Shown here one piece after another: positions 1 to 37,696 of a stretch of 40,497 nucleotides of DNA. The DNA is from Flammeovirgaceae bacterium BBD 1991-12 (GTDB taxonomy: Bacteria; Bacteroidota; Bacteroidia; Cytophagales; Cyclobacteriaceae), in NCBI GenBank assembly GCA_001657315.1, contig LYSV01000100.1, positions 1 through 40,497 of the forward strand. The letters are read 5' to 3'. How positions within the stretch are numbered: position 1 is the stretch's first letter; each line of letters opens with the position of its first letter. Position numbers and translations under genes: made by a program. Under the pieces are notes generated by a model. The model was not told the origin of the DNA. It worked only from the letters and a program-made list of their open reading frames with translations, and made no database searches.

Positions 1-367
1 CTTTGAAGAAGTAATTGCCCTCTCTAAGCGCCTGATTCAAATGCTTACCGGAGTGGAAGATCAGGCTCACGGGCGTTTTCACCATGCGGATGGCCTGCAG
101 CTCGTCCACCCGGGTCTCTATTTTGAAGTTCGCCTTCAGGTCATCGTTACGGGTCACCACCAGCAGGTCGTAGTCGCTTTTGTATTCGTACAGGATGCCG
201 TTTTCCACATAGGTGTCTTCCACATACTCGCCGCGGGCGTAGCTGCCGAAGAGGATCACCATCTCTACTTCCTTGTAGCTGCTGAGCAGGTCGGTCAGGT
301 GCTTTAGCTCTTCCTGTTTGGTGAGGGGGAGTTTTTGTAAGGATCCGTTCACGGATGTAAAGTACAT
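1..367 (-). CDS. Nucleotidyltransferase-domain protein, N-terminal part (cut by window edge)
   Basis: The reading frame starts at the ATG complementary to 365-367 and is open to the left edge, giving 122 residues. Residues 41-46 read GSYARG and are followed by D65 and D67 in SDYDLLVV, the GSxxRG...DxD signature of minimal (MNT/Pol-beta-like) nucleotidyltransferases. About 17 residues are inserted between the two halves (VEDTYVENGILYEYK), which I associate with Bacteroidota proteins that carry a HEPN domain after the nucleotidyltransferase domain. Such MNT-HEPN proteins are often antitoxin/toxin-like and common in accessory regions. Whether a HEPN domain follows cannot be seen here. The fold call is solid; a toxin-antitoxin role is inference. 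Confidence 0.8.
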   Translation of the reverse strand, partial: MYFTSVNGSLQKLPLTKQEELKHLTDLLSSYKEVEMVILFGSYARGEYVEDTYVENGILYEYKSDYDLLVVTRNDDLKANFKIETRVDELQAIRMVKTPVSLIFHSGKHLNQALREGNYFFK

Positions 368-493
368 TTTGTTTACTGAAAACTTAATATAGGGAATTTT
401 TTTAGTCGGGAATCTTGAGTAATTAGTCGTGAGGAATCTACTGACTCGTTAAAAGAGTACTTTGAAAATCAACAGGGTTTTCGCTAATCCCAT

Positions 494-625: not shown

Positions 626-868
626 ATGAAGAAAGAACTGATATCTGAGTTTTTCTCAAAGCTTGAAGAAGCTTGTTACAATCTTGACGGTTGGGAATGT
701 TGGAGTGCCTGGAAGTTACAGGAGATACTTGCCTACAAAAATTGGAGAAACTTTGCCAATGCGATTCAGAAAGCTTCCAAATCCTGTGAAAACTCGGGAG
801 AACGAATAGATGATCATTTCGTTGGGGTCACCAAAATGATCGATATCGGCAAAGGAAGCATAACTTAG
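626..868 (+). pseudogene. DinD/BRO-like DNA-damage-inducible protein, N-terminal fragment
   Basis: The 80 residues match the start of DinD-type proteins: WECWSAWKLQEILAYKNWRN, then IQKASKSC and DDHF near residue 60. Full DinD proteins are roughly 270-290 residues, so only the first quarter or so is present. Similarity stops near GKGS (residues 75-78) and the frame closes two codons later, inside an inverted repeat at 860-914. I find no continuation in another frame before the next gene at 1037. DinD of Escherichia coli is LexA-controlled and acts on RecA filaments; this fragment is unlikely to keep that activity. It reads as the remnant of a gene cut by rearrangement, though expression of an 80-residue peptide is possible. 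Confidence 0.7.
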
Positions 869-1036: not shown

Positions 1037-4000
1037 ATGCCCTCAATTGCATTCGTTGATACGGAAGTTGAGCCAAAGAGCCGAAAGATCCTTGACATTG
1101 GAAGTGTCAGGGGAGATGGAAGCTTCTTTCACAAAAGTTCGGTAGCCGATTTCATCCGGTTCCTTATGGGTACGCAATTCATTTGCGGACATAACATTTT
1201 CAATCATGACATTAAGTTTATTGGCAAGGCACTTGATGATGCCGGGATAAATCCTGCAAACATCATTGACACGCTATTCCTTTCCCCTCTTCTTTTTCCG
1301 GCCAAACCCTACCATGCATTGGTAAAAGACGATAAGCTTCAATCTGATTATACAAACAACCCGCTTAATGACGCAATCAAAGCCAGGGATTTATTCAATG
1401 ATGAAGTTGCAGCCTTCAAACAAACCGATGAAACACTTAAACAAATTTTGTATTTGCTATTGCATGACAAGAAGGAGTTCCACTCCTTTTTTCGTTTCAT
1501 GGCATACTCAAGTGAAAGCGCTGATGTAGAAAAATTGATTCGTGATAAATTCAAAAATGAAATTTGCGAACAAGTTGACCTCGTTAAAATAATTTCAGAA
1601 CACGCAATTGAACTTGCTTACTGCCTGTCCCTGCTTAACTCATTCATCCAGCATAAGAAAATACATTCTATCACACCTCCATGGGTGTTGAAAAATTATC
1701 CTGAAGTTGAGCAGATCATGTTTCGTCTGCGAAATAAACCTTGCTTAAGTGGTTGTATTTACTGCAACAATGCATTGGACATACACAAAGGCCTGAAAAG
1801 GTTGTTCGGTTTTGATTCCTTCAGAACGTATGGAGGTGAGCCGTTGCAGGAGAGGGCGGTTAAAGCAGCCGTTGACAATAGATCCATACTTGCAGTTTTC
1901 CCGACTGGTGGCGGTAAGTCAATCACCTTTCAGGTACCTGCATTGATGAGTGGTGAAAGTTCAAAAGGTTTGACAATTGTGATTTCACCTTTGCAATCGC
2001 TGATGAAAGACCAGGTGGACAATCTTGAAAAAGTCGGAATCACCGAAGCAGTTACAATAAACGGCTTACTAGACCCGATTGAACGGGCAAAATCCTTTGA
2101 ACGGGTTGAAGATGGTTCCGCCTCTATCCTTTACATTTCGCCGGAATCTCTGCGTTCACCGACCATTGAACGATTGATTTTAGGACGGAAAACTGTTCGT
2201 TTTGTCATTGATGAGGCACACTGTTTTTCTTCTTGGGGGCAGGACTTCAGGGTTGATTATCTATACATAGGTGATTTCATCAAATCGATCCAGGAACAGA
2301 AAAATCTTGAAGATGGAATTCCTGTTTCATGCCTTACAGCAACGGCTAAGCAAAAGGTCATTCAAGATATTCGTGACTACTTCAAGGAAAAACTTTCCCT
2401 TGACCTTGAACTGTTCACTTCCAAAACATCAAGAACAAACCTTCAATACAAGGTTTTTGAAAAAGGCAACGAAGAAGAAAAGTACCAGGCAGTAAGGGAT
2501 TTGATCGAGGAGAAAAATTGCCCGACAATCATTTATGTTTCAAGAACACGGAAAGCATACAAACTTGCCGAGAGGCTGACAGAAGATGGTTTCAATGCAA
2601 AACCTTACCACGGCAAAATGGATGCGGAAGAAAAAACTGCCAACCAGGATGCTTTTATCTCCGGTGAAGTCCCGATCATGGTGGCGACTTCCGCTTTTGG
2701 AATGGGTGTCGACAAAAAAGATGTAGGCATGGTGATTCACTATGAAATTTCCGATTCACTTGAAAACTACATCCAGGAAGCGGGCAGGGCAGGACGAGAT
2801 GAAAACATCGTTGCCGATTGCTTTGTGTTGTTTAACGAGGAAGATCTTGGCAAACATTTCATCTTGCTAAACCAAACAAAACTTTCCATCAAAGAGATCC
2901 AGCAGGTTTGGAAAGCCATAAAGGAGATAACAAGATTTCGTTCAACAGTTTCAAATTCAGCCTTGGAGATTGCGCGAAAAGCCGGCTGGGATGATAGTGT
3001 TGTAGAGATCGAAACGAGGGTAACCACAGCCATTGCGGCACTGGAAGATTCGGGCTATTTGAAGCGAGGCCAAAATATGCCGAGAGTTTTTGCCAGTAGT
3101 ATTCTTTCCAGGAATGCACAGGAGGCCATTGACAAAATCAATGCTTCAGAAAGATTTGAGGAGAAGCAGAAAGAAAAAGGGGTCCGGATCATCAAAAAAC
3201 TTTTTTCCAGTAAAAGCAGAAAGCAATCAAATGAAGAAACGGCTGAATCAAGGGTTGATTACATCGGTGATCATTTGGGAATTGTAAAAGAAGAAGTAAT
3301 AAACATTGTGAATCTTCTCCGCGAGGAGAAGATTTTGGCTGATGCAAAGGATTTAACAGCCTTCATCAAAAAGGGAGAAAACAAGAACCGCTCACTCAAT
3401 ATCGTCGAAACTTTCAGCAGGATTGAAAACTTCCTGCTTTCCGTATTTGATGAACAGGAAAAAACATTTCACATCAAGGAGCTCAACGAAGAAGCTGAGA
3501 CCAAAGGTTGCGATAATGTGAATACCAACAGGATTAAAACCATCATCAACTTTTGGGCCATTAAGAATTGGATTAAGCGGCAAAACCTGGCGTATTCCAG
3601 GAATCATGTGCTTGTGCTCTGCCTGCATCCGAAAGAATTGCTGAAAGAAAAGCTGGAAAGGCGGCATGAGCTGGCAAGGTTCATTGTTGAATTCCTTTAT
3701 CAAAGAAACCTGAATTCATCGGAGGATGATACAAAAGACGAGGTTTTGGTAGAGTTTTCGGTGCACGAATTGAAAACCGCCTATGAGATCAGTCAAAATC
3801 TCTTCAAACAAAGCATCCGTATAGATGACATTGAAGATACTCTGTTTTATCTGTCAAGAATTGAAGCCATCAAAATTGAAGGAGGCTTTCTTGTGGTTTA
3901 TAACCGGTTGACTATCGAAAGAGTAGAAGAGGACAATTATAAGCGATATACGAAGGAGGACTATCAGAAACTCAATCAGTTTTACGAAAACAAGGTTCAG

Positions 4001-5848
4001 CAAATTCATATCGTTGGTGAATATGCAAAGAAGATGATAGGCGACTACAAAGATGCATTACAGTTTATAGAGGATTATTTTCAGCTAAACTATGGCTCGT
4101 TCTTAAAAAAATATTTTCCGGGCAGCAGGGTTGACGACCTTAAACTCAAAATGACCCCGGGAAAATTCAAACAACTTTTCGGAGAACTTTCACCCACCCA
4201 ATTGAAAATCATAAACGACAATGAAACAAAATATATTGTCGTATCAGCCGGACCCGGAAGCGGAAAAACCAGGGTGCTGGTGCACAAACTTGCTTCATTG
4301 CTTTTGATGGAAGACGTAAAGCATGAGCAATTGCTTATGGTTACGTTCTCAAGAGCAGCCGCAACGGAATTTAAAAAGAGATTGCTCAAACTCATTGGCA
4401 ATGCGGCAAATTACATTGAGATAAAAACATTTCACTCCTACTGCTTTGACTTATTAGGCAAGGTTGGCAGTTTGGAAAAATCCGATGTGATTTTGAAAAA
4501 GACCATTGAGAAAATCAGGAACAAGGAAGTTGAAGCCAGCCGGATTACCAAAACAGTTTTGGTGATTGATGAGGCGCAGGATATGGACGAAGATGAGTTC
4601 AGTCTGATAACTGCTTTGATGGAACAGAATGAGGAAATGAGAGTGATCGCAGTGGGGGACGATGACCAAAACATTTACGAATTCAGGGGAGCAAGCTCCA
4701 AATATCTCGAACAGTTTATTCAAATAAACAAGGCAACGAAATATGAATTGGTTGAAAATTACAGGAGCAAAAGTAACCTTGTTGAATTCACCAATCAGTT
4801 TGTAAAGAGCATCCGCCATCGTTTAAAAGACACGCCAATTATTGCCAGACAAGCTAACAATGGAAAAATAAAATTGGTGTGTTACCAGGGTGGTAATCTT
4901 ATTACTCCGCTTGTACATGACATACTTACAACCGGACTTACAGGAACTACATGTGTGCTTACAAAGACGAATGAGGAAGCATTGCAAATCACAGGACTAC
5001 TTTTGAAAAATGGTATGCAGGCGAAATTGATCCAAACGAATGACAGTTTCAGTTTGTATAATCTTTCGGAAGTCAGATACTTTTTAAGTCGCTTGAATTT
5101 GGCTGATGACGTTTTTATAATCAGTGATGATATTTGGGCAAATGCAAAACGAGAATTGATAAACACGTTCAGGAACAGCACGAAATTAGAAGTATGCTGT
5201 ACTATTATTAATGATTTTGAGGCAACCAACCCAAAGAAAAAATGCAAATCGGATCTGGAAGTTTTCATACGGGAATCCAGGCTGGAAGACTTCTTCAATG
5301 AGAACGGAGAAACCATTTTCGTTTCAACTATTCACAAAGCCAAGGGTAAAGAGTTTGACAATGTTTTCCTGATGCTTGAAAACTTCAACCCTGCCACGGA
5401 TGAAGCCAAACGACAGTTATATGTTGCCATGACAAGGGCAAAGCGGAATTTAACCATTCACCTGGACTCAGATTTCCTTGACAACATTTCGGTAGAAAAT
5501 TTAGAACAGGTTAAAGATGTAGAGATCTACCTGACCCCAAACGACATGGCAATGCATCTGACTTACAAAGATGTTTGGCTGGATTACTTTATAAACAAAC
5601 AACATTTGGTTTCTCAATTGATAAGTGGAGATCGTTTGACTTTGAACGGGGACGAATATTTGAATTCAAGAGGGCAATCTGTTTTAAAATTCTCACGGCA
5701 GTTCGTAAAACAAATTGAATTAATGAAAGAAAAAAATTACGAACTGAAAAGTGCCAGTGTGAACTTCATTGTTTACTGGCTTAAAGAAGGAGCAGAACAA
5801 GAGGTAAAGGTCATTTTACCAGAACTTTATTTTGAGAAAAAATTATAG
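1037..5848 (+). CDS. Exonuclease-RecQ-UvrD three-enzyme fusion (1603 aa)
   Basis: Three enzyme modules in one chain. Residues 1-125 look like a DEDD-family 3'-5' exonuclease: D8/E10 in FVDTEVEP, D58 in HNIFNHDIKF, D112 in NNPLNDA; the His expected five residues before D112 is Asn107. C236, C240 and C243 form CX3CX2C, a possible metal site, just before the RecQ core. The RecQ-like SF2 helicase has Walker A PTGGGKS at 289-295, DEAH at 392-395 and GRAGRD at 583-588. A long linker (about 620-1050) resembles winged-helix material. The C-terminal UvrD/Rep-like SF1 helicase has GPGSGKT at 1072-1078, DEAQD at 1178-1182, then STIHKAKGKEFD and YVAMTRAKR. The gene is visibly more AT-rich than ptrB and its neighbours and sits alone among inverted repeats beside a broken gene, suggesting horizontal gain. 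DNA repair or anti-phage defence are both possible; the role is inference. Confidence 0.9.
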   Translation: MPSIAFVDTEVEPKSRKILDIGSVRGDGSFFHKSSVADFIRFLMGTQFICGHNIFNHDIKFIGKALDDAGINPANIIDTLFLSPLLFPAKPYHALVKDDKLQSDYTNNPLNDAIKARDLFNDEVAAFKQTDETLKQILYLLLHDKKEFHSFFRFMAYSSESADVEKLIRDKFKNEICEQVDLVKIISEHAIELAYCLSLLNSFIQHKKIHSITPPWVLKNYPEVEQIMFRLRNKPCLSGCIYCNNALDIHKGLKRLFGFDSFRTYGGEPLQERAVKAAVDNRSILAVFPTGGGKSITFQVPALMSGESSKGLTIVISPLQSLMKDQVDNLEKVGITEAVTINGLLDPIERAKSFERVEDGSASILYISPESLRSPTIERLILGRKTVRFVIDEAHCFSSWGQDFRVDYLYIGDFIKSIQEQKNLEDGIPVSCLTATAKQKVIQDIRDYFKEKLSLDLELFTSKTSRTNLQYKVFEKGNEEEKYQAVRDLIEEKNCPTIIYVSRTRKAYKLAERLTEDGFNAKPYHGKMDAEEKTANQDAFISGEVPIMVATSAFGMGVDKKDVGMVIHYEISDSLENYIQEAGRAGRDENIVADCFVLFNEEDLGKHFILLNQTKLSIKEIQQVWKAIKEITRFRSTVSNSALEIARKAGWDDSVVEIETRVTTAIAALEDSGYLKRGQNMPRVFASSILSRNAQEAIDKINASERFEEKQKEKGVRIIKKLFSSKSRKQSNEETAESRVDYIGDHLGIVKEEVINIVNLLREEKILADAKDLTAFIKKGENKNRSLNIVETFSRIENFLLSVFDEQEKTFHIKELNEEAETKGCDNVNTNRIKTIINFWAIKNWIKRQNLAYSRNHVLVLCLHPKELLKEKLERRHELARFIVEFLYQRNLNSSEDDTKDEVLVEFSVHELKTAYEISQNLFKQSIRIDDIEDTLFYLSRIEAIKIEGGFLVVYNRLTIERVEEDNYKRYTKEDYQKLNQFYENKVQQIHIVGEYAKKMIGDYKDALQFIEDYFQLNYGSFLKKYFPGSRVDDLKLKMTPGKFKQLFGELSPTQLKIINDNETKYIVVSAGPGSGKTRVLVHKLASLLLMEDVKHEQLLMVTFSRAAATEFKKRLLKLIGNAANYIEIKTFHSYCFDLLGKVGSLEKSDVILKKTIEKIRNKEVEASRITKTVLVIDEAQDMDEDEFSLITALMEQNEEMRVIAVGDDDQNIYEFRGASSKYLEQFIQINKATKYELVENYRSKSNLVEFTNQFVKSIRHRLKDTPIIARQANNGKIKLVCYQGGNLITPLVHDILTTGLTGTTCVLTKTNEEALQITGLLLKNGMQAKLIQTNDSFSLYNLSEVRYFLSRLNLADDVFIISDDIWANAKRELINTFRNSTKLEVCCTIINDFEATNPKKKCKSDLEVFIRESRLEDFFNENGETIFVSTIHKAKGKEFDNVFLMLENFNPATDEAKRQLYVAMTRAKRNLTIHLDSDFLDNISVENLEQVKDVEIYLTPNDMAMHLTYKDVWLDYFINKQHLVSQLISGDRLTLNGDEYLNSRGQSVLKFSRQFVKQIELMKEKNYELKSASVNFIVYWLKEGAEQEVKVILPELYFEKKL

Positions 5849-6404: not shown

Positions 6405-8456
6405 GTGGAAGACCATCCCATCGCTCCCCGGGCGGGAAAAATTGAAAAAGAGCTGATCGCGCATGATCACAAAAGGACGGACCCGTACTATTGGCTCAAT
6501 GACAGAGATAATCCGGAGGTGATCCGGTACCTGAAGACTGAAAATGACTACACGGAAAAGGTGATGAAGCACACCGTAGCATTTCAGGAAACACTTTACA
6601 AGGAAATTGTTGGGCGCATTAAACAAACGGACGAATCTGTTCCCTACCTTTCAAATGGTTACTGGTACTATCTGAGGTACGAGGAGGGCAGGGAATATCC
6701 TATCCACTGCAGAAAAAAGGAAACCCTGGAAGCGGCCGAGGAGATAATGCTGGATGTTAACGTAATGGCAGAGGGCCATGACTATTATCAGGTGGTCGGG
6801 CTGAATGTAAGTCCGGATAACAGGCTGTTGGCTTTTGGAGTGGACCCGGTAAGTCGTAGACAATACACCATCTACATTAAGGATCTGCATACCGGTGAAC
6901 TGCTGGATGTGGAGATTACCCAAACAACAGGAGGCAGCACCTGGGCCAATGACAGCAAAACACTTTTTTATACCAAAAAGGATGAACGAACGCTGCGTTC
7001 CCATCAGATCTACCGGCATATATTGGGCTCTGCCTCTGCTGACGTGCTCATTTATGAGGAAAAGGATGACACCTTTTATACTGGCATTTACAAAACCCGG
7101 TCTGACCGGTTTCTGGTGATCTGGTCGGGCAGTACGCTTACCAATGACTACCGGATACTGGATGCCGATACACCGGAGGGTGAATTCAGGCCGTTTACTC
7201 TGCGGGAAAGAGGACTGGAATACTCCATTGAACATTTTGAAGATAAATTCTACGTGGTCACCAACCTGGAGGCACAAAACTTCCGGCTGATGGAAACTCC
7301 GGTGGACAGGACGGACTGGTCCCACTGGAAGGAAGTGATTGCCCACCGGCCGGATGTGCTGTTGGAAGGGGTGGAGGCATTTCGTGAATATCTGGTGGTA
7401 GAAGAACGCAAAAACGGACTTACCGAGCTGCGGATCATCCACCAGAAAACCGGAAAGGAGCACTATCTCGATTTTGGAGAAGAAGCCTATACCTCCTATG
7501 TTTCTGTCAACAGAGAATTTGATACTACAGTACTTCGCTACGGATACACATCATTGACCACTCCGAATTCTACCTTCGACTATAACATGGCCTCAGGAGA
7601 AAAGACCCTGCTCAAACAGCAGGAGATAGTAGGAGGCTATGATCCTGCTCTGTATGAGACCAGGCGTCTCTATGCCAAAGCCAGGGACGGTGTAAAGGTG
7701 CCTTTGTCGCTGGTGTACAAAAAAGACCTGAAAAGGGAAGCTGGTAATCCGGCCCTCCTCTATGGTTATGGGTCGTATGGGGCCACCATTGATCCCACTT
7801 TCAGCTCCGTAAGGCTTAGCCTGCTGGACAGAGGATTTGTTTTTGCTATTGCCCATGTTCGGGGTGGGCAAATGCTGGGCCGTCCATGGTATGAAGACGG
7901 CAAAATGTTCAAAAAGAAAAACACTTTCAATGACTTCATTGATTGTGCAGAGCATCTGACAGCGACAGGTTACACAGATCCTTCCAGGCTTTTTGCCATG
8001 GGGGGAAGTGCTGGTGGACTGCTTATGGGTGTGGTGATCAATGAGCGGCCGGACCTTTGGAAGGGAGTAGTGGCGGCTGTACCTTTTGTGGATGTCATGA
8101 CTACCATGCTGGATGAGAATATCCCCCTTACCACTGGAGAATATGATGAGTGGGGGAACCCCAATGAGAAGCAGTCTTATGATTATATGCTTTCCTATTC
8201 CCCCTATGACAATGTGAAAGCGGTGTCCTATCCCAATCTGCTGATCACTACAGGCCTGCATGATTCACAGGTGCAATACTGGGAGCCTGCCAAGTGGGTA
8301 GCCAAACTTCGCGATCTGAAAACTGATAGCAACAGGCTGTTGCTGAAAATCAATATGGAGACCGGACACGGTGGCGCCTCAGGCAGATTTGAGCAATACC
8401 GGGAAACCGCGCTGGAATACGCCTTTATCCTTGATCTGGCAGAAATAAAAGAATGA
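6405..8456 (+). CDS. ptrB: Oligopeptidase B (S9A prolyl oligopeptidase family)
   Basis: A 683-residue serine peptidase of the usual oligopeptidase B length, predicted to cleave short peptides after Arg/Lys. The opening PIAPRAGKIEKELIAHDHKR with DPYYWLNDRDNPEVIRYL is typical of the family, followed by the beta-propeller (to about residue 410) and the alpha/beta-hydrolase domain. The catalytic triad is visible: Ser535 in GGSAGG, Asp620 in LHDSQV, His655 in TGHGG. The start is GTG at 6405, because a TAA sits directly upstream in frame and the next Met lies beyond the conserved start. No signal peptide, so cytoplasmic. Its stop overlaps the next gene by four bases (ATGA), so the two are probably translated together. 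Confidence 0.95.
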   Translation: MEDHPIAPRAGKIEKELIAHDHKRTDPYYWLNDRDNPEVIRYLKTENDYTEKVMKHTVAFQETLYKEIVGRIKQTDESVPYLSNGYWYYLRYEEGREYPIHCRKKETLEAAEEIMLDVNVMAEGHDYYQVVGLNVSPDNRLLAFGVDPVSRRQYTIYIKDLHTGELLDVEITQTTGGSTWANDSKTLFYTKKDERTLRSHQIYRHILGSASADVLIYEEKDDTFYTGIYKTRSDRFLVIWSGSTLTNDYRILDADTPEGEFRPFTLRERGLEYSIEHFEDKFYVVTNLEAQNFRLMETPVDRTDWSHWKEVIAHRPDVLLEGVEAFREYLVVEERKNGLTELRIIHQKTGKEHYLDFGEEAYTSYVSVNREFDTTVLRYGYTSLTTPNSTFDYNMASGEKTLLKQQEIVGGYDPALYETRRLYAKARDGVKVPLSLVYKKDLKREAGNPALLYGYGSYGATIDPTFSSVRLSLLDRGFVFAIAHVRGGQMLGRPWYEDGKMFKKKNTFNDFIDCAEHLTATGYTDPSRLFAMGGSAGGLLMGVVINERPDLWKGVVAAVPFVDVMTTMLDENIPLTTGEYDEWGNPNEKQSYDYMLSYSPYDNVKAVSYPNLLITTGLHDSQVQYWEPAKWVAKLRDLKTDSNRLLLKINMETGHGGASGRFEQYRETALEYAFILDLAEIKE

Positions 8457-35503: not shown

Positions 35504-37696
35504 ATGTTAGCAAACAATCCTCTGGAAATACTAAAAAATACATTTGGCTATCAGCAGTTCCGTCCTCATCAGGAGGAGATCATTCAGAGTGTGCTTTCCG
35601 GCAGAGACACTGTCGTACTGATGCCTACCGGTGGAGGTAAATCACTCTGCTATCAGATACCGGCACTGGTAAAAGAGGGTACAGCGCTGGTGGTCTCTCC
35701 ACTCATTGCACTGATGAAAGATCAGGTGGATGTGCTGAGGCTTCATGGTATTCCCGTGGCCTTCCTGAACTCAACACAAAGCCATGAAGAGCAGAACCAC
35801 ATATTGATGCAGTTGCGTAATGGTGAGCTTAAACTAATCTATATTGCACCGGAACGCTTGCTCGGCAGGGAACAGCAGTTCATCGATCTTATAAAAAAGG
35901 TAAGAGTATCGCTTGTGGCAGTGGATGAGGCGCACTGCATTTCCTCCTGGGGTCATGATTTCCGTCCGGAGTACCTGCTGTTGTCCCGGATCACTAGCAT
36001 GTTGGGTGATAAAGTCCCCACCATTGCCCTCACAGCCACTGCAGATGACCTTACCCGGCGCGATATTGTGGAAAAGCTGGAACTTACCCGGCCAGAAATA
36101 TTCGTAACTGGTTTTAATCGTCCCAACATACAGTATACGGTGAGGCCGAAACGGAATACGTATACACAGTTGCTGGATTTTTTGAAAAGCCATAAAGACG
36201 ATTCAGGCATCATTTACACACTCAGAAGGGCTGATACAGAAATACTCGCCGAAAATCTTCGAAATGATGGCTTTCTGGCCAAATCCTATCATGCCGGTAT
36301 GGAAAGGCATGTAAAGGATCAGCATCAGGAAGAATTCCTGAAAGATGAAACAAAGATCATCGTGGCTACGATCGCCTTTGGGATGGGAATAGACAAATCG
36401 AACGTGAGGTTTGTAGTACATATGGATCTGCCAAAAAATATAGAAGGCTACTATCAGGAGACCGGGAGGGGTGGCCGGGATGGGCTGCCGTGTAGTGCCT
36501 TGTTGTTCTACTCATATGCCGATTATTTCACTCTCAGGAATCTCGTGACGATATCCGATAATCCGTCTCAGTCTGCTATCATGCAGGAGAAGCTTATGAA
36601 AATGGCTGACTACAGCAATCTGAAAACCTGCAGAAGAAAATTTTTGCTGCAATACTTTGGAGAGAGATCTGCTTCGTATTGTGGGAGCTGTGACAATTGT
36701 CTTAACAAATACGAAGAAACAGATGGTACGGAGATCGCGCAAAAAGCAATGTCGGCAGTGGTAAGGCTTCATCAACGGTTTGGGGTGAACTATGTTATCG
36801 ACTTTTTAAGAGGTTCTGCTTCACAAAAGATCAGGGAAGAGCACAGGATGCTGAAAACCTATGGAGTAGGCGCTGATGTATCAAAAGAGGACTGGAGGCA
36901 TTATATCAACGAATTGATCCAACAGGATCTTATGAAAAGATCGTCAGGTAAGTATCCTGTTCTTGAACTCACCTCACAAGGCAGGGAAGTTCTGAACGGC
37001 GGAAAAAAGGTCACGTTGATAAAGCCTTTGGAAGCAGGTCAATGGGAGCAGCGTAGCGAAGAATTTCATACCCATGAAGACCTGATTTCCTCATTAAAAG
37101 CTCTTCGAAGGATGATCGCAGATAGCGAAAACGTGCCGGCCTATATTGTTTTTTCCGATGCCAGTCTACAAGAATTAGTGACGTACCTGCCTTGTACAAA
37201 AGAAGATCTTAAACAAATCAACGGATTTGGTGAAGTTAAAGTGCAGCGCTATGGTGAGGTCATACTCAACGAGATTTCAAAGTATTGCAATGAGCAAGGG
37301 TTGGAATCCCGAATACCAGTTGTCCAAACCAAAAGAACTGGGAGCAGAACACCAGGAGAAACCTTCCAAAAAACATTTGAGCTGTTTCAACGCGGTAAGG
37401 GCATTCAGGAAATAGCGAATGAACGAGGTCTGACTAGGGGTACTATAGAATCGCATTTCAACATCCTGATTCAAAAGGGTCAGGTGCAGACCAGCGATGT
37501 TGTCCCGGAGGATCGCATAGAAAAAATCATGGACGTACTTTCTAAACTTCCTGAAGCGGGCCTTGGAGCCATTAAAAGACAACTGCCCGAAGACTTCAGC
37601 TATGGAGAGATAAGAATGGTAATTTCTTCTGATCGGAAATATCGGGAACGGAAAGTTCAACCTTTTCGGATGCAAAAACCAAACGAAAGTCTATGA
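35504..37696 (+). CDS. recQ: ATP-dependent DNA helicase RecQ
   Basis: 730 residues. Walker A MPTGGGKSLCYQ (lysine at 46), DEAH at 141-144 followed by CISSWGHDFRPEY, and the C-terminal lobe with GRGGRDG. Zinc ligands Cys376, Cys393, Cys396 and Cys399 precede the winged helix, then an HRDC domain near 525-600 and a final helix-turn-helix segment (IQEIANERGLTRGTIESHF near 635-655) seen in Bacteroidota and Bacillus RecQ. It unwinds 3'-overhang and forked DNA in repair. Its last codon overlaps the first of two ORF6N genes (ATGA), which is unusual for a housekeeping helicase gene. Confidence 0.96.
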   Translation: MLANNPLEILKNTFGYQQFRPHQEEIIQSVLSGRDTVVLMPTGGGKSLCYQIPALVKEGTALVVSPLIALMKDQVDVLRLHGIPVAFLNSTQSHEEQNHILMQLRNGELKLIYIAPERLLGREQQFIDLIKKVRVSLVAVDEAHCISSWGHDFRPEYLLLSRITSMLGDKVPTIALTATADDLTRRDIVEKLELTRPEIFVTGFNRPNIQYTVRPKRNTYTQLLDFLKSHKDDSGIIYTLRRADTEILAENLRNDGFLAKSYHAGMERHVKDQHQEEFLKDETKIIVATIAFGMGIDKSNVRFVVHMDLPKNIEGYYQETGRGGRDGLPCSALLFYSYADYFTLRNLVTISDNPSQSAIMQEKLMKMADYSNLKTCRRKFLLQYFGERSASYCGSCDNCLNKYEETDGTEIAQKAMSAVVRLHQRFGVNYVIDFLRGSASQKIREEHRMLKTYGVGADVSKEDWRHYINELIQQDLMKRSSGKYPVLELTSQGREVLNGGKKVTLIKPLEAGQWEQRSEEFHTHEDLISSLKALRRMIADSENVPAYIVFSDASLQELVTYLPCTKEDLKQINGFGEVKVQRYGEVILNEISKYCNEQGLESRIPVVQTKRTGSRTPGETFQKTFELFQRGKGIQEIANERGLTRGTIESHFNILIQKGQVQTSDVVPEDRIEKIMDVLSKLPEAGLGAIKRQLPEDFSYGEIRMVISSDRKYRERKVQPFRMQKPNESL

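Follow-up and report, generated by a model that had tools for sequence, protein, structure and literature searches.

The gene at 1037..5848 of this stretch, which at its full length of 40,497 nucleotides is called the window below, raises a question of identity as well as of function: does one reading frame really join a nuclease to two helicases of different superfamilies, and what would such a protein do for its host? An earlier note, made from the letters of the window, had read it as a processive unwinding and degrading enzyme with a role in defence or in a mobile element. The features that the discussion needs are the following.

626..868, plus strand, DinD gene remnant of 80 aa, the N-terminal quarter of the protein (NCBIfam E 1.9e-21 over positions 4-79 of 288)
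1037..5848, plus strand, exonuclease-RecQ-UvrD fusion gene, 1603 aa in one open frame
1037..1426, plus strand, DEDD exonuclease-fold domain according to a predicted model, residues 1-130
1058..1066, plus strand, motif I, D8-x-E10, in 86/86 and 17/17 copies
1187..1210, plus strand, motif II, GHN..D (H52, N53, D58), invariant in both alignments
1355..1372, plus strand, motif III, N107-N-P-x-x-D112, with Asn at the position of the DEDDh catalytic His
1427..1786, plus strand, helical region with four Cys (177, 236, 240, 243), preceding RecQ
1787..2896, plus strand, RecQ-type SF2 helicase core, residues about 251-620, with TGGGKS at 290 and DEAH at 392
2897..4171, plus strand, middle region with at least two, perhaps four, winged-helix units
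4172..5476, plus strand, UvrD/Rep-type SF1 helicase, residues about 1046-1480, with PGSGKT at 1073, DEAQD at 1178 and GDDDQNIYEFRG at 1207
6405..8456, plus strand, oligopeptidase B gene (ptrB), the downstream syntenic anchor
35504..37696, plus strand, ordinary RecQ with zinc, RQC and HRDC domains present (Pfam)

The proposal that an exonuclease fold, a RecQ and a UvrD module lie on one chain is borne out by Pfam together with a structure model of the N-terminus. The order along the chain is a DEDD exonuclease fold (1-130), the helical four-Cys region, the RecQ core (250-620), a middle part rich in winged helices and a complete UvrD/Rep motor (1050-1480). Pfam places DEAD at 269-444 and Helicase_C at 481-587 within the RecQ core, and in the SF1 motor UvrD-helicase from 1052 and UvrD_C up to 1475. 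Membership in the RecQ family is indicated by NCBIfam TIGR00614 (272 bits against a cut-off of 220), and the SF2 motor motifs are kept; the NCBIfam equivalog cut-offs for RecQ, DpdF and UvrD all lie far above the scores of the fusion. Behind the RecQ motor, Pfam finds no match to the classic RecQ zinc, RQC and HRDC domains, in place of which there may be a divergent winged helix. As for the second motor, the SF1A motifs PGSGKT, DE-QD and GDDDQ each occur in 17 of 17 diverse copies, and motif VI (T-R) in all 16 copies of that set extending that far.

So long a frame might be suspected of being a chance ORF or a sequencing artefact. For comparison, 121 loci were assembled (the window, 40 genome stretches and 80 named loci), and 108 remained after 8 without a closed frame at the match and 5 duplicates had been left out. 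Frames of at least 1450 aa were found in 97 of these 108 distinct copies, and both Walker motifs fell within one frame of more than 1450 aa in 67 of 87 loci. Over the whole gene dN/dS is about 0.05 (0.050-0.057 against three relatives at a dS of 1.3-1.8, which is near saturation; of the four pairs tried, the fourth was saturated), and by this measure the gene is under strong purifying selection. The long frames, the Walker motifs within one frame and the low dN/dS together rule out an artefact. Among the 11 short copies, three break off no more than 200 bases before their stretch ends, and stops or frameshifts cut or split the remainder; since these come mostly from draft genomes, loss looks the same as error there. 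One same-family copy (L012, G015:C32) carries a single in-frame TAG, and its frame ends after 1292 aa. In another copy (H20), on the Nostoc sp. ATCC 53789 plasmid NZ_CP046704.1, an IS1634-family transposase is annotated between two helicase pieces.

The N-terminal domain is recognized mainly by its predicted structure. Pfam gave nothing credible for this region in the 17 relatives scanned (best E 0.038, to unrelated families), and a profile search of the PDB with the domain matched exonucleases weakly (best E 8e-4). The model, which has a pLDDT of 87 for residues 1-259, finds its best match in the exonuclease-bearing DinG of Staphylococcus aureus (SaDinG), and resembles DnaQ, RNase T, ExoX and Orn as well among the structure matches listed. 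As modelled, the domain is an RNase H-like fold of the DEDD exonuclease type; a fold unrelated to exonucleases, which the earlier note had named as an outcome that would speak against it, is not what the prediction gives.

Within this fold every one of the 86 closer relatives, and 17 of 17 copies from several phyla, has the metal-binding acids D8, E10, D58 and D112. Five positions ahead of the last Asp, where DEDDh enzymes have their catalytic His, the closer relatives have Asn (82/86) or Ser (4/86), and all 17 diverse copies have Asn; HMMER aligns the His of PDB 9l8b with this Asn/Ser site (E 0.006). In the passages on SaDinG in PMC12345164, H149 at the equivalent site activates water, and the exchange of core residues for alanine, H149 included, nearly abolishes activity. 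Two conserved residues of the fusion, K97 (invariant in both sets) or H93 (86/86 and 15/17), might stand in for the missing His. Loop 98-104 of the model has a pLDDT under 50, so that its geometry cannot decide the active-site question. With the acids kept and the His replaced, the nuclease may be unusual, regulated, weak, altered or dead. Of the processive unwinding and degrading enzyme that had been suggested, the exonuclease fold and both motors therefore stand, but a simple degrader is uncertain because Asn or Ser replaces the catalytic His.

The three Cys (236, 240 and 243) that had been pointed out in front of the RecQ core are joined by a fourth, Cys177. All four occur in 86 of 86 closer relatives and in 14 of the 17 diverse ones; two of the 17 have none of the four, and the Aliarcobacter copy has only C243. 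Such a four-Cys site in front of RecQ is a probable zinc site.

How does the gene sit in its own genome? It is not the housekeeping RecQ, as had been supposed: the genome has three other RecQ-like loci, among them the gene at 35504, in which the zinc, RQC and HRDC domains are all found. The DinD gene beside the fusion is indeed broken, the NCBIfam match being confined to positions 4-79 of 288. Upstream of this remnant, a frame resembling an MNT-type nucleotidyltransferase (2-445, minus strand, translation read by eye) is cut by the contig end. The description of the fusion gene as AT-rich and isolated holds. With a GC3 of 0.435 it ranks lowest among the 24 genes of the window that have at least 150 aa; the remaining 23 have a mean of 0.518 (s.d. 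0.040). The flanking inverted repeats proposed as element ends did not hold up; there are only short palindromes and imperfect pairs, and a search for inverted repeats found no pair linking the two flanks of the gene.

The family to which the gene belongs is both wide and patchy. Its N-terminal domain occurs in 2 of the 15 genomes of the genus. In the same family it turns up in 46 of 295 genomes, spread over 33 of 84 genera, and a phylum sample has it in 15 of 395. Where it does occur, the frame is usually complete: 43 of 47 places in same-family genomes belong to open frames no shorter than 1596 aa, and all 15 places in the phylum sample to frames no shorter than 1601 aa. A scan of one genome per species (84,980 species) yielded at least 579 confirmed stretches with the N-terminal domain, a count in which one gene can appear twice because two patterns were used. 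The 80 loci kept from it are mostly from Bacteroidota, and also from Clostridia (including Desulfosporosinus), Deltaproteobacteria and Lentisphaerae. Judged from these sequences, the three-module architecture recurs across several phyla. It is found on plasmids too: in a tblastn search, 3 of 505 matching records reached at least 80% query coverage, and at least 70% was reached in 24 of the 40 records listed, which come from several phyla. A phage core gene can be ruled out, since none of the 95 phage records with a match, and 0 of 50,697 overall, holds 80% of the fusion.

A conserved core gene in syntenic position across Cytophagales was another outcome considered beforehand, and is excluded by this patchiness in the genus and family and by the ptrB neighbourhoods of congeners. 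A relative of ptrB (E <= 1e-100) is present in 13 of the 15 genomes of the genus, the own genome included, some being only 41-43% identical. Around the best ptrB match in ten congeners, 7 of 10 have the same two upstream genes and one more has one of them; the fusion is absent from all ten stretches (5-15 kb). In the window, the fusion and the DinD remnant precede ptrB instead of the usual upstream genes, and the closest relative of the usual ptrB-upstream gene lies on another contig. Directly upstream of ptrB, three stretches (L232, L234 and L235) have differing extra genes, of 230 aa in two and of 437 aa in one. As different congeners have different extra genes there, the site may be an insertion hot spot.

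Gene trees, built from rows over 1400 aa only (71 rows and 62 rows), lead in the same direction. With a quick method and ranks taken from submitters' titles, the tree mixes classes: Chitinophagia require 9 label changes, at least 7 of them forced by starred branches, and Flavobacteriia 7, at least 6 of them forced. Transfer is not free, because the labels cluster more than shuffled ones do, needing 21 changes where shuffling gives 34.0 on average, and because the 8 rows from Bacillota group together. The nearest named relative, from Hydrotalea, is 87% identical, and the partial copy of a congener 79%. From its patchy and non-syntenic occurrence, its class-mixing tree and its carriage on mobile elements, we infer that the fusion is a horizontally spread accessory gene. 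The mobile and accessory nature suggested earlier is thereby supported by the counts in genus and family, the tree, the lowest GC3 of the window and the plasmid copies.

Neighbouring genes might be expected to reveal a partner or a function. Among 824 neighbouring genes, the largest families occur at 6 of 108 loci, so there is no fixed partner, and an operon with a constant partner is ruled out. Of the full copies with a called neighbour, 14 of 95 have a gene on the same strand no more than 60 bp upstream, and 9 of 91 have one no more than 60 bp downstream. PADLOC models were run at a 1e-10 limit on two sets of near neighbours and on a control, with similar totals of matching families (85 for the family sample, 90 for the named loci, 72 for the control). 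The family sample comprised 143 proteins from genes of 70-1400 aa at 40 loci; 4 of the 143 are HNH restriction-type genes, and metabolic and regulatory families dominate its Pfam tally. At the 65 named loci, the two closest genes on either side were considered and the first with 90-1300 aa was taken; 112 of 119 proteins were scanned, 7 pieces of the fusion itself being left out. Strong matches among these 112, in the best 25 of 90 families, include type I and type IV restriction, DRT reverse transcriptase, AbiEii and HNH, as well as PDC-S14, PDC-S18, PD-T4-1, SoFic, MkoA and a type II methylase. A gene-family pair near the fusion in 3 loci we take to be McrB/McrC, and another family in 3 loci is presumably HsdR; both readings agree with the type IV and type I PADLOC matches near named loci. 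Genes of HNH_2-type endonucleases lie within three genes of the fusion at L177, L185 and L201, at the last on both sides, and, by clustering only, also near L066, L089 and L110.

The control took 141 proteins encoded around 20 further recQ-like genes; the best 25 of its 72 families include RmuC, PD-T4-6 kinase, mad6 and MkoA, together with four mad3 matches of lesser strength. On protein counts estimated from the PADLOC family tallies, about 10 of 112 neighbours of the fusion are defence genes against about 4 of 141 in the control (Fisher p 0.03; with 9, 0.06; with 11, 0.02). Pooling with the family sample (16/255) gives p 0.10, and counting the four mad3 matches of the control (8/141) gives p 0.22. 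The control used 141 of 154 proteins and, as several of the longest were among the 13 dropped, its defence count is possibly too low. The numerical excess over the control is weak, and the type of neighbour (R-M, Abi, DRT) tells more than the number.

Six IMG/VR contigs with the full gene (L039-L044) had their neighbour proteins checked individually, ten per batch with some overlapping. Two adjacent large serine recombinase genes lie directly upstream of the fusion in L039 (6501-9400), which suggests that this copy is carried by an integrative element. A phage capsid gene lies about 3 kb from the fusion in L040; AbiEi and two PDC genes are near it in L041, a type II methylase in L043, a methylase and a type II restriction gene in L044, and a cytochrome bd gene in L042. 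The search for homologues with scoring of their neighbourhoods, as the earlier note had advised, has thus recovered the three-module order again and again, with a weak excess of defence genes around it. Its suggestion of a defence or mobile-element role draws support from mobile carriage and from the kinds of neighbours, less so from their number (p 0.02 to 0.22, according to the way of counting).

Several known systems resemble parts of the fusion. Human Werner protein (WRN) has an exonuclease before a RecQ helicase on one chain, without a UvrD motor; its exonuclease is of the DEDDy type, and it possesses RQC and HRDC domains. Structures of WRN align with the RecQ part of the fusion, which differs in having no RQC or HRDC match in Pfam and an additional UvrD motor. 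ExoDinG, the S. aureus DinG, has a DinG/XPD-like helicase and neither RecQ nor UvrD. Its exonuclease fold (PDB 8zef/9ii8) is the best match of the N-terminus, and according to the passages in PMC12345164 it keeps the catalytic His149, where the fusion has Asn or Ser; the same passages bring up SaDinG in connection with sensitivity to mitomycin C and with repair by MrfAB. RecBCD and AddAB also unite two motors and a nuclease in one machine, with several subunits, a different nuclease fold and Chi control, whereas the fusion is one chain with RecQ, UvrD and a DEDD fold. GajB and the DRT-associated helicase each have a gene of their own, next to that for GajA or for a reverse transcriptase. Their UvrD-type PADLOC models match the UvrD half of the fusion, which, unlike them, is without a fixed partner, one near neighbour matching the DRT model. 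Models of PsyrT/RqlH and DpdF match the RecQ half only; the fusion scores 215 against the NCBIfam cut-off of 550 for DpdF and differs from both in having no fixed partner genes. Among the best 25 of 67 PADLOC (2023) models, all matches to the fusion cover half of the protein. We know of no combination of RecQ and UvrD in any of Hna, Nhi, Hachiman and Gabija. In the passages on known systems (PMC5512222, PMC12345164, PMC13381803, PMC12458937), Nhi, Hachiman and Gabija use nuclease and helicase in phage defence, and Hna is a single-effector phage-defence system that combines the two, as the fusion does; Hna is described there as having helicase domains of the SF2 type and, at its C-terminus, a PD-(D/E)XK nuclease, whereas the fusion has an N-terminal nuclease fold and UvrD on the C-terminal side. 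ExoDinG, WRN, Hna/Nhi, PsyrT/RqlH, DpdF and GajB thus each share one or two modules with the fusion, and none shares all three. Among the matches listed from the open-access literature (5.39 million papers, a collection outside which most subscription papers lie), we found no paper on the exonuclease-RecQ-UvrD combination; the architecture may be undescribed, and this negative is no proof of it.

What, then, might the protein do? Both the RecQ and the UvrD families are 3'-5' motors. The Cys-rich and winged-helix parts could load the protein onto a 3' single-stranded tail or a fork, where the RecQ motor would unwind the duplex in the 3'-5' direction and the UvrD motor would add a second 3'-5' pull and strip bound proteins. 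The unwound 3' end would be passed to the DEDD site and trimmed or held there; by analogy with RecB in RecBCD, a 3'-5' exonuclease behind the motors could digest the tail that they leave. We tentatively favour, at a little under an even chance, a self-sufficient nuclease-helicase, spread by horizontal transfer, that would chiefly attack or clear foreign or aberrant DNA, such as phage or plasmid replication intermediates. This defence reading draws on mobility, on carriage by mobile elements and on the kind of neighbours. The order of the domains, the intact motifs of both motors, the acids that bind metal, the purifying selection, the mobility and the lack of a fixed partner are seen in sequence or model, while motor polarity (taken from the two families), zinc, nuclease activity, DNA as the substrate and defence itself are inferred.

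Much of the same evidence could also be accommodated by an accessory enzyme of DNA repair or replication stress, comparable to ExoDinG, MrfAB and WRN, which would unwind and trim damaged 3' ends or crosslinks and spread by helping its host under stress. The best fold match, with its link to mitomycin C and MrfAB in the source cited above, the repair functions of the RecQ and UvrD families, the strong purifying selection and the mainly metabolic and regulatory neighbours of the family sample all suit such an enzyme. It fits less well with an occurrence that is very patchy even in one genus, with a tree that mixes classes, and with the recombinases and R-M/Abi genes adjoining the fusion in some loci; we hold this repair role to be unlikely, if still a serious contender, and defence to be the more likely of the two. 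A good deal more improbable is that the fusion is a helper carried by plasmids and integrative elements, which it would assist in replicating, establishing themselves or competing with other elements. Plasmids of several phyla do bear it, for example Aliarcobacter pACIB, where it lies beside parAB and replication genes, and serine recombinases adjoin it in L039, but many copies reside on contigs of megabase size, no replication or transfer gene accompanies them constantly, and the phage records offer nothing comparable.

Compatible with any of these is the thought that the exonuclease domain has lost catalysis and acts as a sensor of 3' ends or single-stranded DNA for a two-motor remodelling helicase, no DNA being degraded. 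The Asn or Ser in every aligned copy (86 and 17) and the alanine exchange in SaDinG argue for it; the invariance of all four metal-binding acids and the presence of K97 and H93, either of which might take over, argue against it. Dead nucleases rarely keep all metal-binding acids, and we regard a dead domain as rather doubtful. Clearing of foreign DNA, the reading preferred above, can also be put in a bolder form, which is speculative and to our minds improbable as a whole: a widespread, undescribed class of one-protein immunity, in which RecQ and UvrD 3'-5' motors and a histidine-less DEDD exonuclease would form a self-contained counterpart of RecBCD that clears invading DNA, the nuclease either working with a new active-site set (the acids, the invariant Lys and Asn/Ser) or being held off until a trigger.

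Among the plasmid records listed, most copies of the family are annotated 'RecQ family ATP-dependent DNA helicase'; others are labelled 'UvrD-helicase domain-containing protein' or 'ATP-dependent DNA helicase RecQ', and some have no label, so that an enzyme of roughly 1600 aa and three modules is taken for a plain helicase. The loss of the His with all metal ligands kept poses the question whether a DEDD nuclease works without it. If the fusion is a repair enzyme, it would be a bacterial WRN-like fusion with an additional motor; should it act in defence, a single gene would make up a large system that no model among those best PADLOC matches covers at full length.
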